From assembly GCA_946629665.1 (NCBI GenBank), contig CAMOYC010000003.1, forward strand, positions 1 to 38,199: 38,199 nt of DNA. The letters run 5' to 3'. The notes beneath the pieces were generated by a model. That model searched no databases, was not told where the DNA came from, and was given only the letters and a program-made list of their open reading frames with translations. Positions within the stretch are counted from its first letter, which is position 1. Each line of letters opens with the position of its first letter. Positions 27,984-38,044 of the stretch are shown in pieces. The DNA is from an uncultured Lachnospiraceae bacterium. Lineage in GTDB: Bacteria > Bacillota > Clostridia > Lachnospirales > Lachnospiraceae. The position numbers and the translations under genes were made by a program.

Positions 27984-30536
27984 ATGAAAGAACTGAAAAA
28001 TATCATTATACATATTGTGGTGGGGCTCGTTGTGTTTGTTGGCGCCCTGGCCTTTTTCAATTATCACAATCTGAGGAGTCCGGGGGATGCAGCGGTGGAG
28101 ATGCCCAACCCCTCCTATCCGGTCCTGGAGATCGGGAACGAGATCAGCGATTATAATCTGATGATGGGCTACCGGGACAATATTGACCGGTCCCTGGTCC
28201 GCAATCAGGTGACTGCCTTAGACAGCTCCAAGGAAGTGCATCTGAAACTGCACCAGTACGGCCACGATATTACGGCGATCCAGTATGTCCTCTACCAGAA
28301 ATCGCCGGATGATCCGCTGGAAAAGGGGACTCTCAATAAATTGACTGATGAGGAAGACGGAGATATCCGGGAAGGCACTATCACCCTGACCAGCAACCTG
28401 AAAGAGGGAGCCAGCTACTATCTGCAGATGGCAGCCCGTCTTGATGATGATACAAAAATCTATTATTATACAAAGATCCAGTCAGCGGTGGGTTATCATG
28501 TGGAAGAATACTTTTCCTTTGCAAAAGAGTTCCATGAAAATCTTTTCAATGAGGTGGAGGGCATGGAGGCAAATGCGATCTTCCTGGAGCCCCTGGAGAA
28601 TTCCACAGATAATTCCCTGGAACTTGTTACGATCAATTCCAGTGTGGATGCAGTATTTTTCGGAAGCATGGAAGTGAATGAGGAAACCCAGCCCAGAATG
28701 CGTCTCAGGGAAATCAACGACACCTATGCGGTCGTGGAGGTGGACAGTCTGCTGTCCAGTCAGATCCGGAGCGGTGTGATCCAGTATTACGATATGAAGG
28801 AAACCTTCAAAGTCAGATACACTGCGGAGCGCATCTACCTGCTGGACTACCGCAGGACCATGGATGCCCGCTATAACCATGAGATCATCGATTCCTCGGA
28901 GAATACGATCTCCCTTGGCATCCAGGCTCAGGAGAACGTGGACTATATGTCCTCCGCGGAAGGGAAAAAAGTAGCATTTGCGGTGCAGGGTCAGCTCTGG
29001 TATTATAATTACCAGTCTTCCGATGTGTCCAGGGTCTACAGCTTCAGCTCCGAGAACACCGGAGATTTGAGAAATGATCCCAGCAACCACGGGATCAAGA
29101 TCCTTAAATTTAATGATGACGGAAATATGACCTACCTGGCCTACGGTTATATCAACCGGGGGGCCCATGAGGGTCAGAACGGCATACAGATCATGTCCTA
29201 TGATGCGAAATCCAACTCCAGCACAGAGATAGCATTTCTTTCCACCTCAGTTCCCTATGAGACCATGCGGGGGGACGTGGAGAAATTTGTTTATCTGAAC
29301 AAAAATAATGTATTTTATTGTATTCTGGACGGAGACCTGCATCAGGTTGACCTGAAGGAGAAGACAGATAAGATCCTGACCTCCAGGCTGGTGGAAGAGA
29401 ACCTGACCGCCTCTGTGGATCAGAGCCTGATCGCGGTGGAAGCCAGCCGGAATGTGGCAAAAAACCGGGAGATCAATCTGTACAACCTGGAAAGCGGCAA
29501 GAAGATCACTTTCCGCTGTAAAAAATCTCAGCGTATCCGGTCCGTCGGATTCCTGACCAACGACTTTATCTACGGGGTTGCTTCCGCCGATAACGTTGCA
29601 AGAAACAACGGAGGAACCGTAACTTTCCCGATGGCCAGACTGGAGATCAAAGATCCCTCCGGCAACCAGGTGAAAACCTACCGGAAGAAGGGATACTATA
29701 TCATGGAAACCGAGATCAAGGGCAATGTGCTCCAGATGAAACTGGGGAAGAAGAAAGGCAGCTTCTTCAAGACCACCTCTGAGGAGGATTTTATCCGCTA
29801 CAAGGAGGAGGATACCGGCGATCAGGTCACACTCACTTACAAGTATTCGACGGTTTACCGGAATCAGCTCTTCCTGAAGTTCCCGAATTATGTTTATATT
29901 CAGATCGAACCGGACCTCCTGATGACCAGGCATTCGGTGAATGGAAAGAGTTCTGGCATCATTCTGGAGAAGAGCGGAGACCAGGCCAGGGAATATTTTG
30001 TTTACGCAGCGGGAGAGAACAAGGCAACCTACACCAGCCTGGCAGAGGCCATCAGGGCCGCGGACAAGGCCCGGGGCAATGTGATCGACAATCAGGAGCA
30101 GACCCTGTGGAAGTGTATGTTCCCCTCCTATGCGATCGTTGCGGGCATGGATAATGTCACCAAGGTTTCGGACGACTGGAAATCTCTGGCCGGCTGTCTG
30201 ACTATGATCGGCGCGGTAAACGGACGTGAGATCGACACGGACAAGATCAGCGGCGCAGAGCAGAGCGTGGAGGAGCTGGTGGAAAGCTGCAGTGGATATC
30301 CTGCCCTGAACCTGACCGGCTGCAGCACGGATGAGATTCTCTACTACATCAGTCAGGGCAGTCCCGTGCTGGCTAAGTATTCCAGCAGCCGCTATGTGAT
30401 CGTCATGAGTTATAATTCGACCAAGATCCGATATCTGAATCCGGTTACCGGCAAGTCCATTGCAGATGACCGGGGAGAGGTGACCAGGAAACTGGAGAAG
30501 GCCGGTAATGTATTTTATACGTATCTTATGGAGTAA
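27984..30536 (+). CDS. Uncharacterised extracytoplasmic protein: N-terminal TM anchor, repeat-like ectodomain, C39-peptidase-like C-terminus
   Basis: 850 aa; IIIHIVVGLVVFVGALAFFNYH anchor; C-terminal DEILYYISQGSPVLAKYSSSRYVIVMSYNSTKIRYLNPVTG resembles a C39-type fold. Confidence 0.75.
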   Translation: MKELKNIIIHIVVGLVVFVGALAFFNYHNLRSPGDAAVEMPNPSYPVLEIGNEISDYNLMMGYRDNIDRSLVRNQVTALDSSKEVHLKLHQYGHDITAIQYVLYQKSPDDPLEKGTLNKLTDEEDGDIREGTITLTSNLKEGASYYLQMAARLDDDTKIYYYTKIQSAVGYHVEEYFSFAKEFHENLFNEVEGMEANAIFLEPLENSTDNSLELVTINSSVDAVFFGSMEVNEETQPRMRLREINDTYAVVEVDSLLSSQIRSGVIQYYDMKETFKVRYTAERIYLLDYRRTMDARYNHEIIDSSENTISLGIQAQENVDYMSSAEGKKVAFAVQGQLWYYNYQSSDVSRVYSFSSENTGDLRNDPSNHGIKILKFNDDGNMTYLAYGYINRGAHEGQNGIQIMSYDAKSNSSTEIAFLSTSVPYETMRGDVEKFVYLNKNNVFYCILDGDLHQVDLKEKTDKILTSRLVEENLTASVDQSLIAVEASRNVAKNREINLYNLESGKKITFRCKKSQRIRSVGFLTNDFIYGVASADNVARNNGGTVTFPMARLEIKDPSGNQVKTYRKKGYYIMETEIKGNVLQMKLGKKKGSFFKTTSEEDFIRYKEEDTGDQVTLTYKYSTVYRNQLFLKFPNYVYIQIEPDLLMTRHSVNGKSSGIILEKSGDQAREYFVYAAGENKATYTSLAEAIRAADKARGNVIDNQEQTLWKCMFPSYAIVAGMDNVTKVSDDWKSLAGCLTMIGAVNGREIDTDKISGAEQSVEELVESCSGYPALNLTGCSTDEILYYISQGSPVLAKYSSSRYVIVMSYNSTKIRYLNPVTGKSIADDRGEVTRKLEKAGNVFYTYLME

Positions 30537-32693: not shown

Positions 32694-33884
32694 TTACTCC
32701 TCATGGATCGTGTGGTACTGAGCGTACTCAGCAAGTCTGTTCTTGATCCTGTCGTGAGGATTCAGAGTCTGACTGATGGATGAATTATGATTCAGCGCAT
32801 CGATCAGGAGAGCGATGTACTTGGAGACATCCGCACTCACATACCACTCACGTTCAAATAATTCCGGACGCTGATAGGTGGAGTTGGTGGTGATCACCCG
32901 GTAGATCAGGCCTTCCTCGTATGCCTTGTCAAACTTCTCCAGACCGTTGGTGAACATACCGAAAGTAGACAGGCAGAAAACGCGTTTCGCATTTCTGCGC
33001 TTCAGCTCCTTAGCCACATCGATCATACTGTCGCCGGAGGAGATCATATCATCAATGATCAGAACATCCTTGCCGTCCAGGGTATCACCCAGGAACTCAT
33101 GGGCAACGATCGGATTGCGGCCGTCGATGAGAACGGAATAGTCACGGCGCTTGTAGAACATTCCGATATCTACTTCCAAAACGTTAGCAAAGTAGATGGC
33201 ACGCTGCATCGCTCCTTCATCCGGGCTGATGACCATCATGTGGTCACTGTCGATCTGAAGATCGTCGGTGGATCTCAGAAGAGCCTTGAGGAACTGGTAG
33301 CTTGGCATGATGTTGTCAAATCCGTTCAGCGGAATAGCATTCTGCACACGGGGATCGTGGGCATCAAAGGTGAGAACATTGTCAACACCCATGTTGACAA
33401 GTTCGTGCAGCATGAAAGCAGCGTCGAGAGATTCTCTGGCGGTACGGCGATGCTGACGGCTCTCATAGAGGAAAGGAAGCAGCACGGTAATGCTGTTGGG
33501 CTTTCCGGAAGCCGCTCCGATCAGACGCTTCACGTCCGCGTAGATATCATCCGGGGAATAGTGGTTGATCTGGCCGCAAAGTTTATAGGTCAGACTATAG
33601 TTGAGAACGTCAGCGATAATGTACAGGTCAGCGCCACGGACAGACTCTGCGATAAAGCCCTTTGCCTCCCCGGTTCCAAAACGCGGACAACTAGCCTTGA
33701 CCAGGTAGGTATCCCTCTTATAACCCTGGTAAGCGGACTCTCCTCTGTGCTGATATTCTCGTTCTGCACGCCAATTCACAATGTACTCATCAATCTTTTT
33801 TCCAAGAGCTTCGCAGCTTGGATGAACGATGATTCCCAGCCTTCCTACAGGTGCGGTTCTGAATTTGCTGTCATCTGGACTCAT
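32694..33884 (-). CDS. Ribose-phosphate pyrophosphokinase, divergent long form
   Basis: 396 aa; LLPFLYESRQHRRTARES, TFDAHDPRVQNAIP, DVLIIDDMISSGDSM (PRPP-binding loop). Confidence 0.85.
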   Translation of the reverse strand: MSPDDSKFRTAPVGRLGIIVHPSCEALGKKIDEYIVNWRAEREYQHRGESAYQGYKRDTYLVKASCPRFGTGEAKGFIAESVRGADLYIIADVLNYSLTYKLCGQINHYSPDDIYADVKRLIGAASGKPNSITVLLPFLYESRQHRRTARESLDAAFMLHELVNMGVDNVLTFDAHDPRVQNAIPLNGFDNIMPSYQFLKALLRSTDDLQIDSDHMMVISPDEGAMQRAIYFANVLEVDIGMFYKRRDYSVLIDGRNPIVAHEFLGDTLDGKDVLIIDDMISSGDSMIDVAKELKRRNAKRVFCLSTFGMFTNGLEKFDKAYEEGLIYRVITTNSTYQRPELFEREWYVSADVSKYIALLIDALNHNSSISQTLNPHDRIKNRLAEYAQYHTIHEE

Positions 33885-33909
33885 AGTATTTCTCCTTATT
33901 GTATAATCA

Positions 33910-33929
33910 GAGTTTGATGATTCAAACTC
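33910..33929 (-). promoter_or_regulatory. Perfect 8-bp inverted repeat in the 5' leader of the PRPP synthetase gene
   Basis: GAGTTTGA-TGAT-TCAAACTC, 26-45 nt upstream of the start codon. Confidence 0.5.
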
Positions 33930-33994
33930 ACGGATAATGAGTGTATCATCAATGGTTGCAGAGTGTCAAGATTAAATAATGAACTTATGTTATA

Positions 33995-35008
33995 TTAATT
34001 ACCGGAAAGAGCCTTCAGCAGGCGGATATCCTCACCGACGATATGAAGCATGGTGTAGGATTCGATCAGCCTGGAAAACACCCGTTCCGAGTATACGGAC
34101 TGAATTCGCTGCAGGGACAGATTGGTGTTGATGATCGTCGACTTCCTGCGCATGATCCTCTCGTTGAGACAGAGGAAGAGCTGGGAGTTGATAAAAGAGT
34201 TGGTAAGCTCCGTTCCCAGGTCATCGATAATGAGCAGGTCACAACTGATCAGGTCCTCAATCGAATAGGAAAGGTCTTCCTCCTTGTGAAAGGTGTTGTT
34301 CTCCAGTTCTTTAAAAAACCGATAGGCAGTGAGATACAGGACACTTTTGTTCTGGCAGAGCAGCTCACCCCCGATGCAGGAGGAAAGAAATGTCTTTCCG
34401 ACTCCCGCACTTCCGTGGATCAGAAGGTTCTGTCCCGGATCGGAGTGGAATCCTGCGATAAACTCCCTGCACACGGCGAGGATCTGTCTCATATTCTCGC
34501 GGGGAGTGACGCCTTCTTCCAGACCGTATTCTCCTGCCCTCTCCGGATCATCCGAATAATAGCTCAGCCTGAACCGGGAAAAATTAGCCTCGCCAAAGAG
34601 TTCAGACAGATTGGACCGGTCAAACAGGATATCCCTTACTTTTTCTTTATAGCAGATACATTCCTGCCCGTCAATGGTCCCGGTGTCCTGGCAGTAAGGG
34701 CAGCTGAAGATGGGATCCAGATAATCCTCCGGATAGCCGTGGGCTTTCAGCAAAGGCCTTTTTTTCGCGGTGAGAGCCTGGATCCTGGCGTGAATGTCTT
34801 CGGAGCTTGCTCCCCCGCTGTGATAAAGTCTGTGCTTAGCCTCCTGGATGGAAAACCGGATGATCTCCCTGTCTATTCCGGCAATCTCCGGAATCTCTTC
34901 GTGGATGGCTTCCCGCCTTTCCATGCTCTTAAGATTATTCGCCCTGCGGATGCGGTCATACTCGTCTGCGATGGACCGCAGCTGGCTGTTTGAGAGGTTC
35001 ATGGTCAT
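33995..35008 (-). CDS. DnaC/DnaI-type AAA+ helicase-loader-like ATPase
   Basis: CPYCQDTGTIDGQECICYKEK Zn-finger, LLIHGSAGVGKTFLSSCIG Walker A, LLIIDDLGTE Walker B. Confidence 0.9.
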   Translation of the reverse strand: MTMNLSNSQLRSIADEYDRIRRANNLKSMERREAIHEEIPEIAGIDREIIRFSIQEAKHRLYHSGGASSEDIHARIQALTAKKRPLLKAHGYPEDYLDPIFSCPYCQDTGTIDGQECICYKEKVRDILFDRSNLSELFGEANFSRFRLSYYSDDPERAGEYGLEEGVTPRENMRQILAVCREFIAGFHSDPGQNLLIHGSAGVGKTFLSSCIGGELLCQNKSVLYLTAYRFFKELENNTFHKEEDLSYSIEDLISCDLLIIDDLGTELTNSFINSQLFLCLNERIMRRKSTIINTNLSLQRIQSVYSERVFSRLIESYTMLHIVGEDIRLLKALSGN

Positions 35009-36081
35009 CTCCTGATCTTAGCCCGAAGCTTGGCTTCCAACTGGCTGTAGTCATAGGTGCGCTGTTCAAAATTATGGAAGGCATTGCTGCCGGTACCCTT
35101 CTTCGGAAGAGGAGCGGTTGCCCGAGGGCTTTTCCCGGATCCTCCCTGGACGCCGGCCCCGGCGGCAGCGGCTGAGCCGCTTTGATGCTCTGCATCGATT
35201 CTGGCGATATCCTCCATGGTCCTGACACCAAGGCGGTGCCAGGTTTCCAGGATGCGGTTCGCATAAGGAAAACTCGGCTTGTTGATCGCAAGTACGGTCC
35301 TGCTGCAGGCCTCCGTGATGATTGAGGTGTCAAAGCCCATATTCCGCCAGCGGCGGACATACTCGATCTCCGCTTCGATTGGTTGCCGCTGACTGATGCC
35401 AAAGGCTCTCAGAACCGGATAGACGGAAGATGACCAGGCCTTGGTCTGCTCCCTGGCAGCGGCAACACTGTCAATCCCCTGCCGGTACCACTCGATCGCC
35501 ACTTTCTCAATATAACGCATACTTCTCTTGTCCCGCTCTATACAATACTCGATCAGGTATTCGATCAGTTCAGGACTGAAGCCCAGCTGGTTGCTGATAT
35601 AGCAGAAACTCTCCAGTTCCGTTGTGGAGAAGGGTTTTCCCAGATAGGTCTCCGCCATAAAAAGTGTTCGCTTCAGATCACCATCTCCGGTGGCCTCATT
35701 AATCTCGATCGGGGAGAACGCTCTTTTGCCTGGAACAACTCTGATCGTATTCGTCGGGATTCCGGACTCTGTCGGGCCGGATTCGGCCTTAACCATATCC
35801 TCAGGCGAATCAATAGTTTCGCTCCCGGAACCGGGCTCCTCAGTCAATATACCGGCTTCCACCCAGTAACTGATCGCCCGGGCTACATCCTTCTGGGTGA
35901 GGTCAAGCAAGTCTGCGAGCAGCTCCTGGCTGACTTCATAACCGTCGCCGATCAGGCGCAGGATGAGCAAATAGATCTTTACGTATTCTCCATCTGCAGG
36001 GATCATATATTCATCAATGAATTCATTAGGAAGTATGGTGACATTCGCCTGCAGATTATCTGACAAAGTGATATTTTTCAT
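35005..36081 (-). CDS. DnaD domain protein (replication initiation/primosome)
   Basis: YLGKPFSTTELESFCYISNQLGFSPELIEYLIEYCIERDKRSMRYIEKVAIEWYRQGI DnaD_2 domain; overlaps the dnaC-like gene by 4 nt. Confidence 0.9.
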   Translation of the reverse strand: MKNITLSDNLQANVTILPNEFIDEYMIPADGEYVKIYLLILRLIGDGYEVSQELLADLLDLTQKDVARAISYWVEAGILTEEPGSGSETIDSPEDMVKAESGPTESGIPTNTIRVVPGKRAFSPIEINEATGDGDLKRTLFMAETYLGKPFSTTELESFCYISNQLGFSPELIEYLIEYCIERDKRSMRYIEKVAIEWYRQGIDSVAAAREQTKAWSSSVYPVLRAFGISQRQPIEAEIEYVRRWRNMGFDTSIITEACSRTVLAINKPSFPYANRILETWHRLGVRTMEDIARIDAEHQSGSAAAAGAGVQGGSGKSPRATAPLPKKGTGSNAFHNFEQRTYDYSQLEAKLRAKIRR

Positions 36082-36282
36082 GGTATCACCCTATTCTTTA
36101 TCGTATTCTTACAGTGTCTGCTCCTGGACTTTGACCGGGGACCAGAGACACTTCCCGCGACAGACTCTGCCTGTTTTTTTTGCGTTCGGCCAAGCTGTCT
36201 GTACCGTTTTTATCATCATCTTTTGTCAATGCTATCATACCATAACCCCCGGAAAAAATACAGAGCGCCCGGATGCCGGAAA

Positions 36283-36521
36283 TGTGGATAACCAGGTGGA
36301 TAACCGGGGTATTTATTCTTGATAAATCAGTGGATAGTCCTTGTGGACAATGTGGATAACATTGTGGACAAAGGAGGAAAAATTCGATATTTTGTTTTCA
36401 CATGATCATTTTTCAGGGCAGACTTACGAGATGTTGTGGTAGATGGATGGGAAGAAATTGTGGATAAAATGTCGGTGGATCGTGGGAGAGGAGCTTTGTT
36501 TTTCTGAAATTTTGTGGATAA
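36283..36521 (+). promoter_or_regulatory. DnaA-box cluster
   Basis: Perfect TGTGGATAA (complement TTATCCACA) at 36283-36291, 36351-36359, 36459-36467, 36513-36521; one-mismatch GGTGGATAA at 36295-36303 and TGTGGACAA at 36342-36350 and 36363-36371; all same orientation. Confidence 0.88.
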
Positions 36522-36582
36522 GAAAATGGGGAGTCTGGCCGGGCGATTATTCCATAAAATATGGTAAAGATTGCCCCTCTGC

Positions 36583-36624
36583 AAAAAAACGCCAGGACTT
36601 GTGGTAGATTCCATAAATCCTGGC
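36583..36624 (-). terminator. Terminator downstream of murC
   Basis: Minus strand GCCAGGA ... TCCTGGC-GTTTTTTT, 7-bp stem, 20-nt loop. Confidence 0.6.
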
Positions 36625-36664
36625 AGTGCTCGGTGGCCATTAATGCAATGGCCCTCTTATATCA

Positions 36665-38044
36665 TTATCGATTAAGCAGATGCTCCCCAATCTCGACAAC
36701 ATTGCCGGCTCCCATGGTGATGAGAAGATCATGTCCTTTTACGTGGGTAAGGAGGAAGTCTTCAATCTCCTCGAAGCTCGGGAAGTAGTAGACATCCGTT
36801 CCCGCTTCCTTCAGCAGGTCCACGATATCCATGGAGGAGACCAGGCCCGTATCCGGCTCCCTGGCTGCATAGATATCAGCCATGACCACGTGGTCGCTTA
36901 GTGTCAGGACATCAGCAAACTGTTTCAGGAAAGCCTTGGTCCTGGTGTAAGTATGAGGCTGGAAAACTGTCCAGATCTCATCATGGGGGTATTCTTTTGC
37001 CGCAGTTAATGTTGCGCGGATCTCTGTCGGATGATGAGCGTAGTCATCGATGATCGTGATGTCTCCGATGGAGCCTTTATATTCAAAGCGGCGATGGGTG
37101 CCTCCGAAGGAGAGCAGACCCTGCCGGATCTGTTCCAGGGGCATGCCGATCTCACGGGCACAGGCAATGGCCGCAAGAGAGTTGCTGACATTGTGGAGCC
37201 CGGTTACTTTCAGAGCGATGCTGCCGGCGGGCTGGCCGGAAACAAGCAGTGTGTAGCTGGGGTTCCCCTGCTCGTCAAATGTGATATCCCGGGCGGAATA
37301 GTCGTTGCCGGGTTCCAGTCCGAACGTGAGAACTTTCTGCTTTAAACCTTGGAGGATATCCTCAGTGTGCTCCATGTCGCCGTTGATGATGATCGTCCCG
37401 TCCGGGGCAGTCTGGGAGGCGAAAGTATGGAAGGAATTCTTTATGTCATCGATATCCTTAAAGAAATCCATATGATCTTCTTCTACATTTAATATAATGG
37501 AGTAAAGCGGATAGAATTCCAGGAAACTGTTGGTGTACTCACAGGCTTCTGTGAGAAACAGATTGGAAGCACCTACCCGGATATTCCCACCGATCCGGTC
37601 TAACATACCGCCGATGCTCACGGTCGGATCCAGTTCGCCCTGAAGCAGGATGTGGGTGAGCATGGAAGTTGTCGTGGTCTTGCCGTGGGTACCGGAAACT
37701 GCGATGGAGCGCAGGTAGTTTGCCATGATCTGACCGAGCAGGGAGGCCCGGCTTATCATTGGAATCCCGGCATCTCTTGCTGCCGCGAATTCCTCATTGT
37801 CTTCATGGATGGCTGCGGTGTAGACCACCAGATCGATTCCGTCTGTAATATTAGAAGCTTTTTGTCCGATCGCGATCCTGGCTCCCATGGCGGACAGGTG
37901 GTCCGTCAGTTCCGAGGCCTTCATATCCGAGCCGGAAACCGTAAATCCCCGGTCAAGCAGGATCTCGGCCAGACCGCTCATGCTGATTCCTCCGATTCCG
38001 ATAAAATGTACATGGATCGGACGATTAAAATCCAGTGTATACAT
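36665..38044 (-). CDS. murC: UDP-N-acetylmuramate--L-alanine ligase
   Basis: HFIGIGGISMSGLAEILLDRGFTVSGSDMK, AVSGTHGKTTTTSMLTHIL, DDYAHHPTEIRATL. Confidence 0.96.
   Translation of the reverse strand: MYTLDFNRPIHVHFIGIGGISMSGLAEILLDRGFTVSGSDMKASELTDHLSAMGARIAIGQKASNITDGIDLVVYTAAIHEDNEEFAAARDAGIPMISRASLLGQIMANYLRSIAVSGTHGKTTTTSMLTHILLQGELDPTVSIGGMLDRIGGNIRVGASNLFLTEACEYTNSFLEFYPLYSIILNVEEDHMDFFKDIDDIKNSFHTFASQTAPDGTIIINGDMEHTEDILQGLKQKVLTFGLEPGNDYSARDITFDEQGNPSYTLLVSGQPAGSIALKVTGLHNVSNSLAAIACAREIGMPLEQIRQGLLSFGGTHRRFEYKGSIGDITIIDDYAHHPTEIRATLTAAKEYPHDEIWTVFQPHTYTRTKAFLKQFADVLTLSDHVVMADIYAAREPDTGLVSSMDIVDLLKEAGTDVYYFPSFEEIEDFLLTHVKGHDLLITMGAGNVVEIGEHLLNR

Follow-up and report, generated by a model that had tools for sequence, protein, structure and literature searches.

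We found that the dnaD-dnaC operon in the 38,199-nucleotide stretch analysed here (the window) is preceded by an array of DnaA boxes that is conserved throughout a bacterial family, the Lachnospiraceae, and lies away from oriC. The array is probably a DnaA-binding cis-regulatory element for dnaD-dnaC(-prs), with activation as its most likely effect, and probably belongs with a few other box sets in a small regulon of DnaA. As judged from sequence, DnaA probably controls the timing of its helper proteins' production across Lachnospiraceae.

A DnaA-box array between murC and the dnaD operon

The array spans positions 36283-36521, where a sequence scan recovered four exact and three one-mismatch DnaA boxes within 239 bp, all on the minus strand. 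It is placed between the murC terminator, which is predicted to separate the murC and dnaD units, and a predicted dnaD promoter. The initial annotation had described the same boxes, in one orientation, between the end of murC and the start of the primosome operon; the scan and simulations bear out the first part, and domain annotation of murC, dnaD and the loader the second. The features, in the direction of transcription, are as follows:

36665..38044, minus strand: murC (TIGR01082)
36583..36624, minus strand: murC intrinsic terminator, a stem-loop with seven T (-20.4 kcal/mol, z -5.2)
36513..36521, minus strand: DnaA box 1, exact TTATCCACA; distal (murC-side) module, 282 bp before the predicted -10
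36459..36467, minus strand: DnaA box 2, exact TTATCCACA; distal module, 228 bp before the -10 (227 in relatives G005 and G017)
36363..36371, minus strand: DnaA box 3, one-mismatch TTGTCCACA; first of the central triple, with a 3-bp gap to box 4
36351..36359, minus strand: DnaA box 4, exact TTATCCACA; central triple, abutting box 5
36342..36350, minus strand: DnaA box 5, one-mismatch TTGTCCACA; central triple
36295..36303, minus strand: DnaA box 6, one-mismatch TTATCCACC; proximal pair, with a 3-bp gap to box 7
36283..36291, minus strand: DnaA box 7, exact TTATCCACA; proximal pair, 20 bp upstream of the predicted -35
36234..36262, minus strand: predicted dnaD promoter, with -35 TGTATT (36262-36257), a 17-bp spacer and an extended -10 TGnTATGAT (36239-36234)
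35005..36081, minus strand: dnaD-like replication initiation protein with a DnaB_2/DnaD domain (PF07261, TIGR01446)
33995..35008, minus strand: DnaC/DnaI-like AAA+ helicase loader (NF005304, PF01695), overlapping dnaD by 4 bp
32694..33884, minus strand: PRPP synthetase-like gene (prs), downstream of the loader (NF005299)

The position of prs after the loader is kept in 78 of 80 relatives; a separate promoter may serve this gene.

Single boxes are not rare in the source draft genome (G000; 2.14 Mb, 209 contigs, 87.5% complete), which holds 34 exact copies against 5 of a reversed control word, and a chance or low-complexity origin of the array could appeal to this background. The probability of such an artefact is negligible: none of 2000 Markov simulations with the composition of the spacer contained at least four exact boxes or at least seven boxes in total in 239 bp, and the family-wide conservation described below, with zero matches to the reversed control, refutes it. 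The genome-wide scan of box density found no second cluster of four exact boxes in G000. With several consensus boxes within a few hundred base pairs, the window array resembles the DnaA-box clusters (DBCs) of B. subtilis.

The boxes keep their distance from a predicted dnaD promoter

The dnaD promoter was predicted by comparing spacers among relatives, most of the genus sharing the motif CTGTWTTTTT-spacer-TATGnTATGAT. Its extended -10 is good and its -35 poor; a generic sigma-70 consensus scan, which performed no better than on shuffles, missed it. In the window, the boxes of the central triple lie 132, 120 and 111 bp before the -10 and those of the proximal pair 64 and 52 bp before it. Near-identical distances were found in two members of the same genus, G005 (131/119/110 and 63/51) and G021 (132/120/111 and 52). 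Read in operon direction, the arrays of the genus comprise one or two distal boxes, another lone box, the central triple, the proximal pair with its 3-bp gap, and the promoter; the triple takes the form CTATCCACAaagTTATCCACATTATCCACA in many members. Between their distal and central modules, genus spacers (L036, L037 and L048, for example) also contain a recurrent motif that is not a DnaA box, similar to CCCTATATCTTGCAA and possibly a site of another factor.

Across the family, exact boxes peak 68, 77, 86 and 96 bp before the predicted -10, with 54 of 84 within 1 bp of a peak. In a jitter control of 2000 runs the mean was 20 and the highest count 34, and none reached the observed 54. This significance is overstated, since the same data served to choose the peaks and the loci share ancestry; the shuffle control likewise overstates independence, the loci being kin. 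DnaA boxes thus stand at a conserved distance from a predicted promoter, as at DnaA-regulated promoters. The close spacing is not universal, since about 70-550 extra bp separate array and promoter in four members of the genus, G009, G014, G020 and G022 (loci L038, L043, L048 and L050).

Successive boxes are most often separated by 0 bp (n = 127) or 3 bp (n = 34) in the family, and by 0 bp (n = 31) or 3 bp (n = 32) in the genus. The 3-bp pairs fit a demonstrated preference, since in vivo E. coli DnaA mainly occupies double boxes separated by 2-3 bp (PMC11317965). Abutting pairs, of which there are many, typify this lineage.

Conservation across Lachnospiraceae and beyond

A query with the loader found matches in all 60 relatives' genomes searched, those in G006 and G060 being weak and non-orthologous. 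Almost all genus members whose upstream sequence is long enough carry 2 to 8 exact boxes, which run in operon direction with few or no exceptions. Comparison of the spacer in related species showed the array in almost every Lachnospiraceae genome sampled. A named set of 80 loci (among them Anaerobutyricum hallii, Blautia, Roseburia, Mediterraneibacter, Lachnospira, Herbinix and Pseudobutyrivibrio) gave counts for the 79 in which dnaD could be detected: their murC-dnaD spacers, 30.9 kb in all, hold 202 exact boxes, and their flanks, 612 kb in all, hold 17; the reversed control has 0 and 9 matches, respectively. The spacer boxes run in operon direction in 198 cases and against it in 4. At least one occurs in 75 of the 79 loci. 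The number of exact boxes varies from 0 to 8 among the relatives; L061 and L176, members with almost no murC-dnaD spacer, have none. The array is linked to dnaD and not to murC: it persists upstream of dnaD even in genomes in which murC lies far off, is inverted or is missing (G003, G009, G015 and G020).

Of 120 further genomes of the family, 64 contain the tandem word TTATCCACATTATCCACA, with 118 exact sites tallied and none for the reversed control; 68 of the 118 lie upstream of the loader operon, on the operon strand. Other families of the same order are mixed, some with the array and others without. The array is specific to this lineage, since in 40 loci taken from other clostridial orders, one of them too short for assessment, the operon is present with no more than one exact box each. 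In distant relatives a box in reverse orientation recurs some 58 bp ahead of the murC stop codon, inside the gene, and probably reflects coding constraint.

Position relative to oriC

Dense same-strand boxes adjoining primosome genes could also mark oriC, or a second, ectopic origin, and dnaA, which the initial annotation had not seen in the window, is absent from the entire draft assembly. Because dnaA is missing, the draft cannot place oriC. In the complete genome G005 (3,515,670 bp), the origin has the normal rpmH-dnaA-dnaN arrangement and contains six exact boxes. GC skew in G005, taken from twenty 20-kb samples, switches at that origin: samples between 20 kb and 1.2 Mb have values of +0.15 to +0.27, and those between 1.9 and 3.5 Mb values of about -0.12 to -0.19. 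The G005 array is located at 3.322 Mb, 192 kb from dnaA and the skew switch, and the skew stays level at about -0.15 from one side of it to the other. Neither dnaA, dnaN nor rpmH adjoins the array, and no DnaA-trio was apparent by eye in that of the window. An origin at the array is therefore very improbable, and the earlier placement of the cluster away from oriC, a trait it shares with DBCs, holds in this relative. Other genomes with both elements on one contig have array-dnaA distances of 45, 124, 136, 137, 152, 279, 288 and 890 kb.

The loader operon does lie beside oriC in some clostridia: loci L241, L242 and L227, from other orders, show dnaA-mnmE-dnaD-dnaC, or dnaN near dnaC, and are without the array. 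We also considered the array as an oriC relic left when dnaD moved; this is unsupported, these origin-adjacent dnaD-dnaC loci having no array.

Box sets at hpf and nrdD

Ten of 20 sampled tandem sites away from dnaD are at hpf, which encodes a ribosome hibernation factor, and the genus carries further box sets before hpf and before nrdD (anaerobic ribonucleotide reductase). The hpf set of the source genome (G000:C68, L270:2303-2332) comprises three tandem boxes, one of them exact, arranged as TTATCCACC-aac-TTATCCACA-TTATCCACG in hpf direction about 290 bp upstream; similar sets precede hpf in many Lachnospiraceae. Upstream of nrdD (G000:C40:7457 and 7568; L271:1121-1240), exact boxes lie at about 270 and 380 bp and occupy both strands; DnaA boxes precede nrdD in G005, G009, G020 and G022 as well. 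Both sets are smaller than the dnaD array. DnaA targets in E. coli ChIP-seq include nrdA and nrdD (PMC11317965).

A bolder reading, which we regard as possible but doubtful, is a Lachnospiraceae-wide DnaA regulon of dnaD-dnaC-prs, nrdD and hpf built on a promoter-locked filament. The initiator would set the supply of helicase-loading machinery, deoxynucleotides and hibernation factor, and DnaD would close a feedback loop on DnaA. If true, one switch would join replication initiation to growth state.

Proposed regulation of dnaD-dnaC by DnaA

The mechanism that we propose for the array, including DnaA occupancy, the sign of regulation and feedback, is read from the arrangement of the boxes. DnaA would bind cooperatively to those boxes, alike in orientation, that abut or stand 3 bp apart, and form a short filament at a fixed distance upstream of the dnaD promoter. 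The filament would most likely activate that promoter, since all boxes in the window lie upstream of the -35, and the extended -10 is good and the -35 poor; activation is here argued from geometry relative to a predicted promoter. At high DnaA levels the effect might shift to restraint. Overall, levels of DnaD and of the helicase loader would be coupled to how much DnaA is available. Two papers, citing earlier work, state that DnaD of B. subtilis inhibits the cooperative binding of DnaA and is recruited to DnaA-bound regions (PMC5295017, PMC4447404). If the same inhibition applies here, control of dnaD by DnaA would constitute a negative feedback loop.

The opposite sign, with DnaA repressing dnaD-dnaC as in dnaA autorepression, is an unlikely variant of this explanation. 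At E. coli nrdAB, for example, high DnaA-ATP can exclude polymerase from the promoter (PMC8203912), but in the window and in most relatives the predicted promoter core is free of boxes, as is the sequence downstream of it.

A further alternative is that the array is mainly a titration site, in the manner of a B. subtilis DBC or the early view of datA, which soaks up DnaA once duplicated and so prevents early re-initiation, with any regulation of dnaD incidental. The G005 array, with four exact and about six to eight one-mismatch boxes, rivals the six exact boxes of oriC; most mapped genomes have the array near the origin, at the distances of 45 to 288 kb given above; and removal of six B. subtilis clusters led to early initiation (PMC5295017). 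A pure sink, however, needs neither a fixed promoter distance nor constant orientation to one operon, nor parallel box sets before hpf and nrdD, and in one genome the array is 890 kb from dnaA. We judge titration as the main role to be rather improbable, although the array may additionally titrate DnaA. The initial annotation had proposed either a titration or regulatory locus or DnaA feedback on the helicase loader. Our analysis supports this proposal and, within it, favours transcriptional control over pure titration because of the promoter-locked geometry, the constant orientation, the linkage to dnaD and the hpf and nrdD sets.

Relation to known DnaA-binding loci

Clusters of DnaA boxes and promoters under DnaA control are both established types of element. 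Like the array, the B. subtilis DBCs are clusters of consensus boxes outside oriC; we found none described at a dnaD-dnaC operon, and the array differs from them in that its target, orientation and promoter distance are conserved through a family. The E. coli datA and DARS loci are likewise ectopic multi-box DnaA sites. They act on the DnaA nucleotide state with IHF/Fis, whereas the array is tied to a promoter; the comparison made here concerns the DnaA boxes. DARS1 and DARS2 contain 3-bp double boxes (PMC11317965). DnaA-controlled promoters such as those of E. coli nrdAB and dnaA, and of the Caulobacter dnaB helicase, where boxes are predicted (PMC8203912), share with the array the placement of boxes upstream of replication or nucleotide genes. 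Unlike these, the array has a DnaD/helicase-loader operon as its target, is longer and is rich in 0-bp boxes.

We found no earlier report, in the open-access papers searched, of a DnaA array at a dnaD or helicase-loader promoter, of its family-wide conservation or of a clostridial DnaA regulon. To our knowledge, initiation control is poorly known outside E. coli, B. subtilis and Caulobacter. For C. difficile, authors call the regulation of DnaA activity unknown (PMC7561715). A conserved array at the helicase-loader promoter of a dominant gut family offers a testable hypothesis, namely that DnaA sets helicase-loading capacity by transcription. Repeats of TTATCCACA spaced by 0 or 3 bp also provide a simple genomic signature for mapping DnaA regulons in uncultured clostridia.

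Other features of the locus

Elsewhere in the window, an 850-aa open reading frame (27984-30536, plus strand) lies between a methyltransferase gene and a PBP1A-like gene and has no Pfam or NCBIfam match. The dnaD operon is usually oriented toward oriC, against replication (window 32694-38044; G005 at 3.32 Mb; G028, G057, G161, G173 and G228), with apparent exceptions in G135 and G199.
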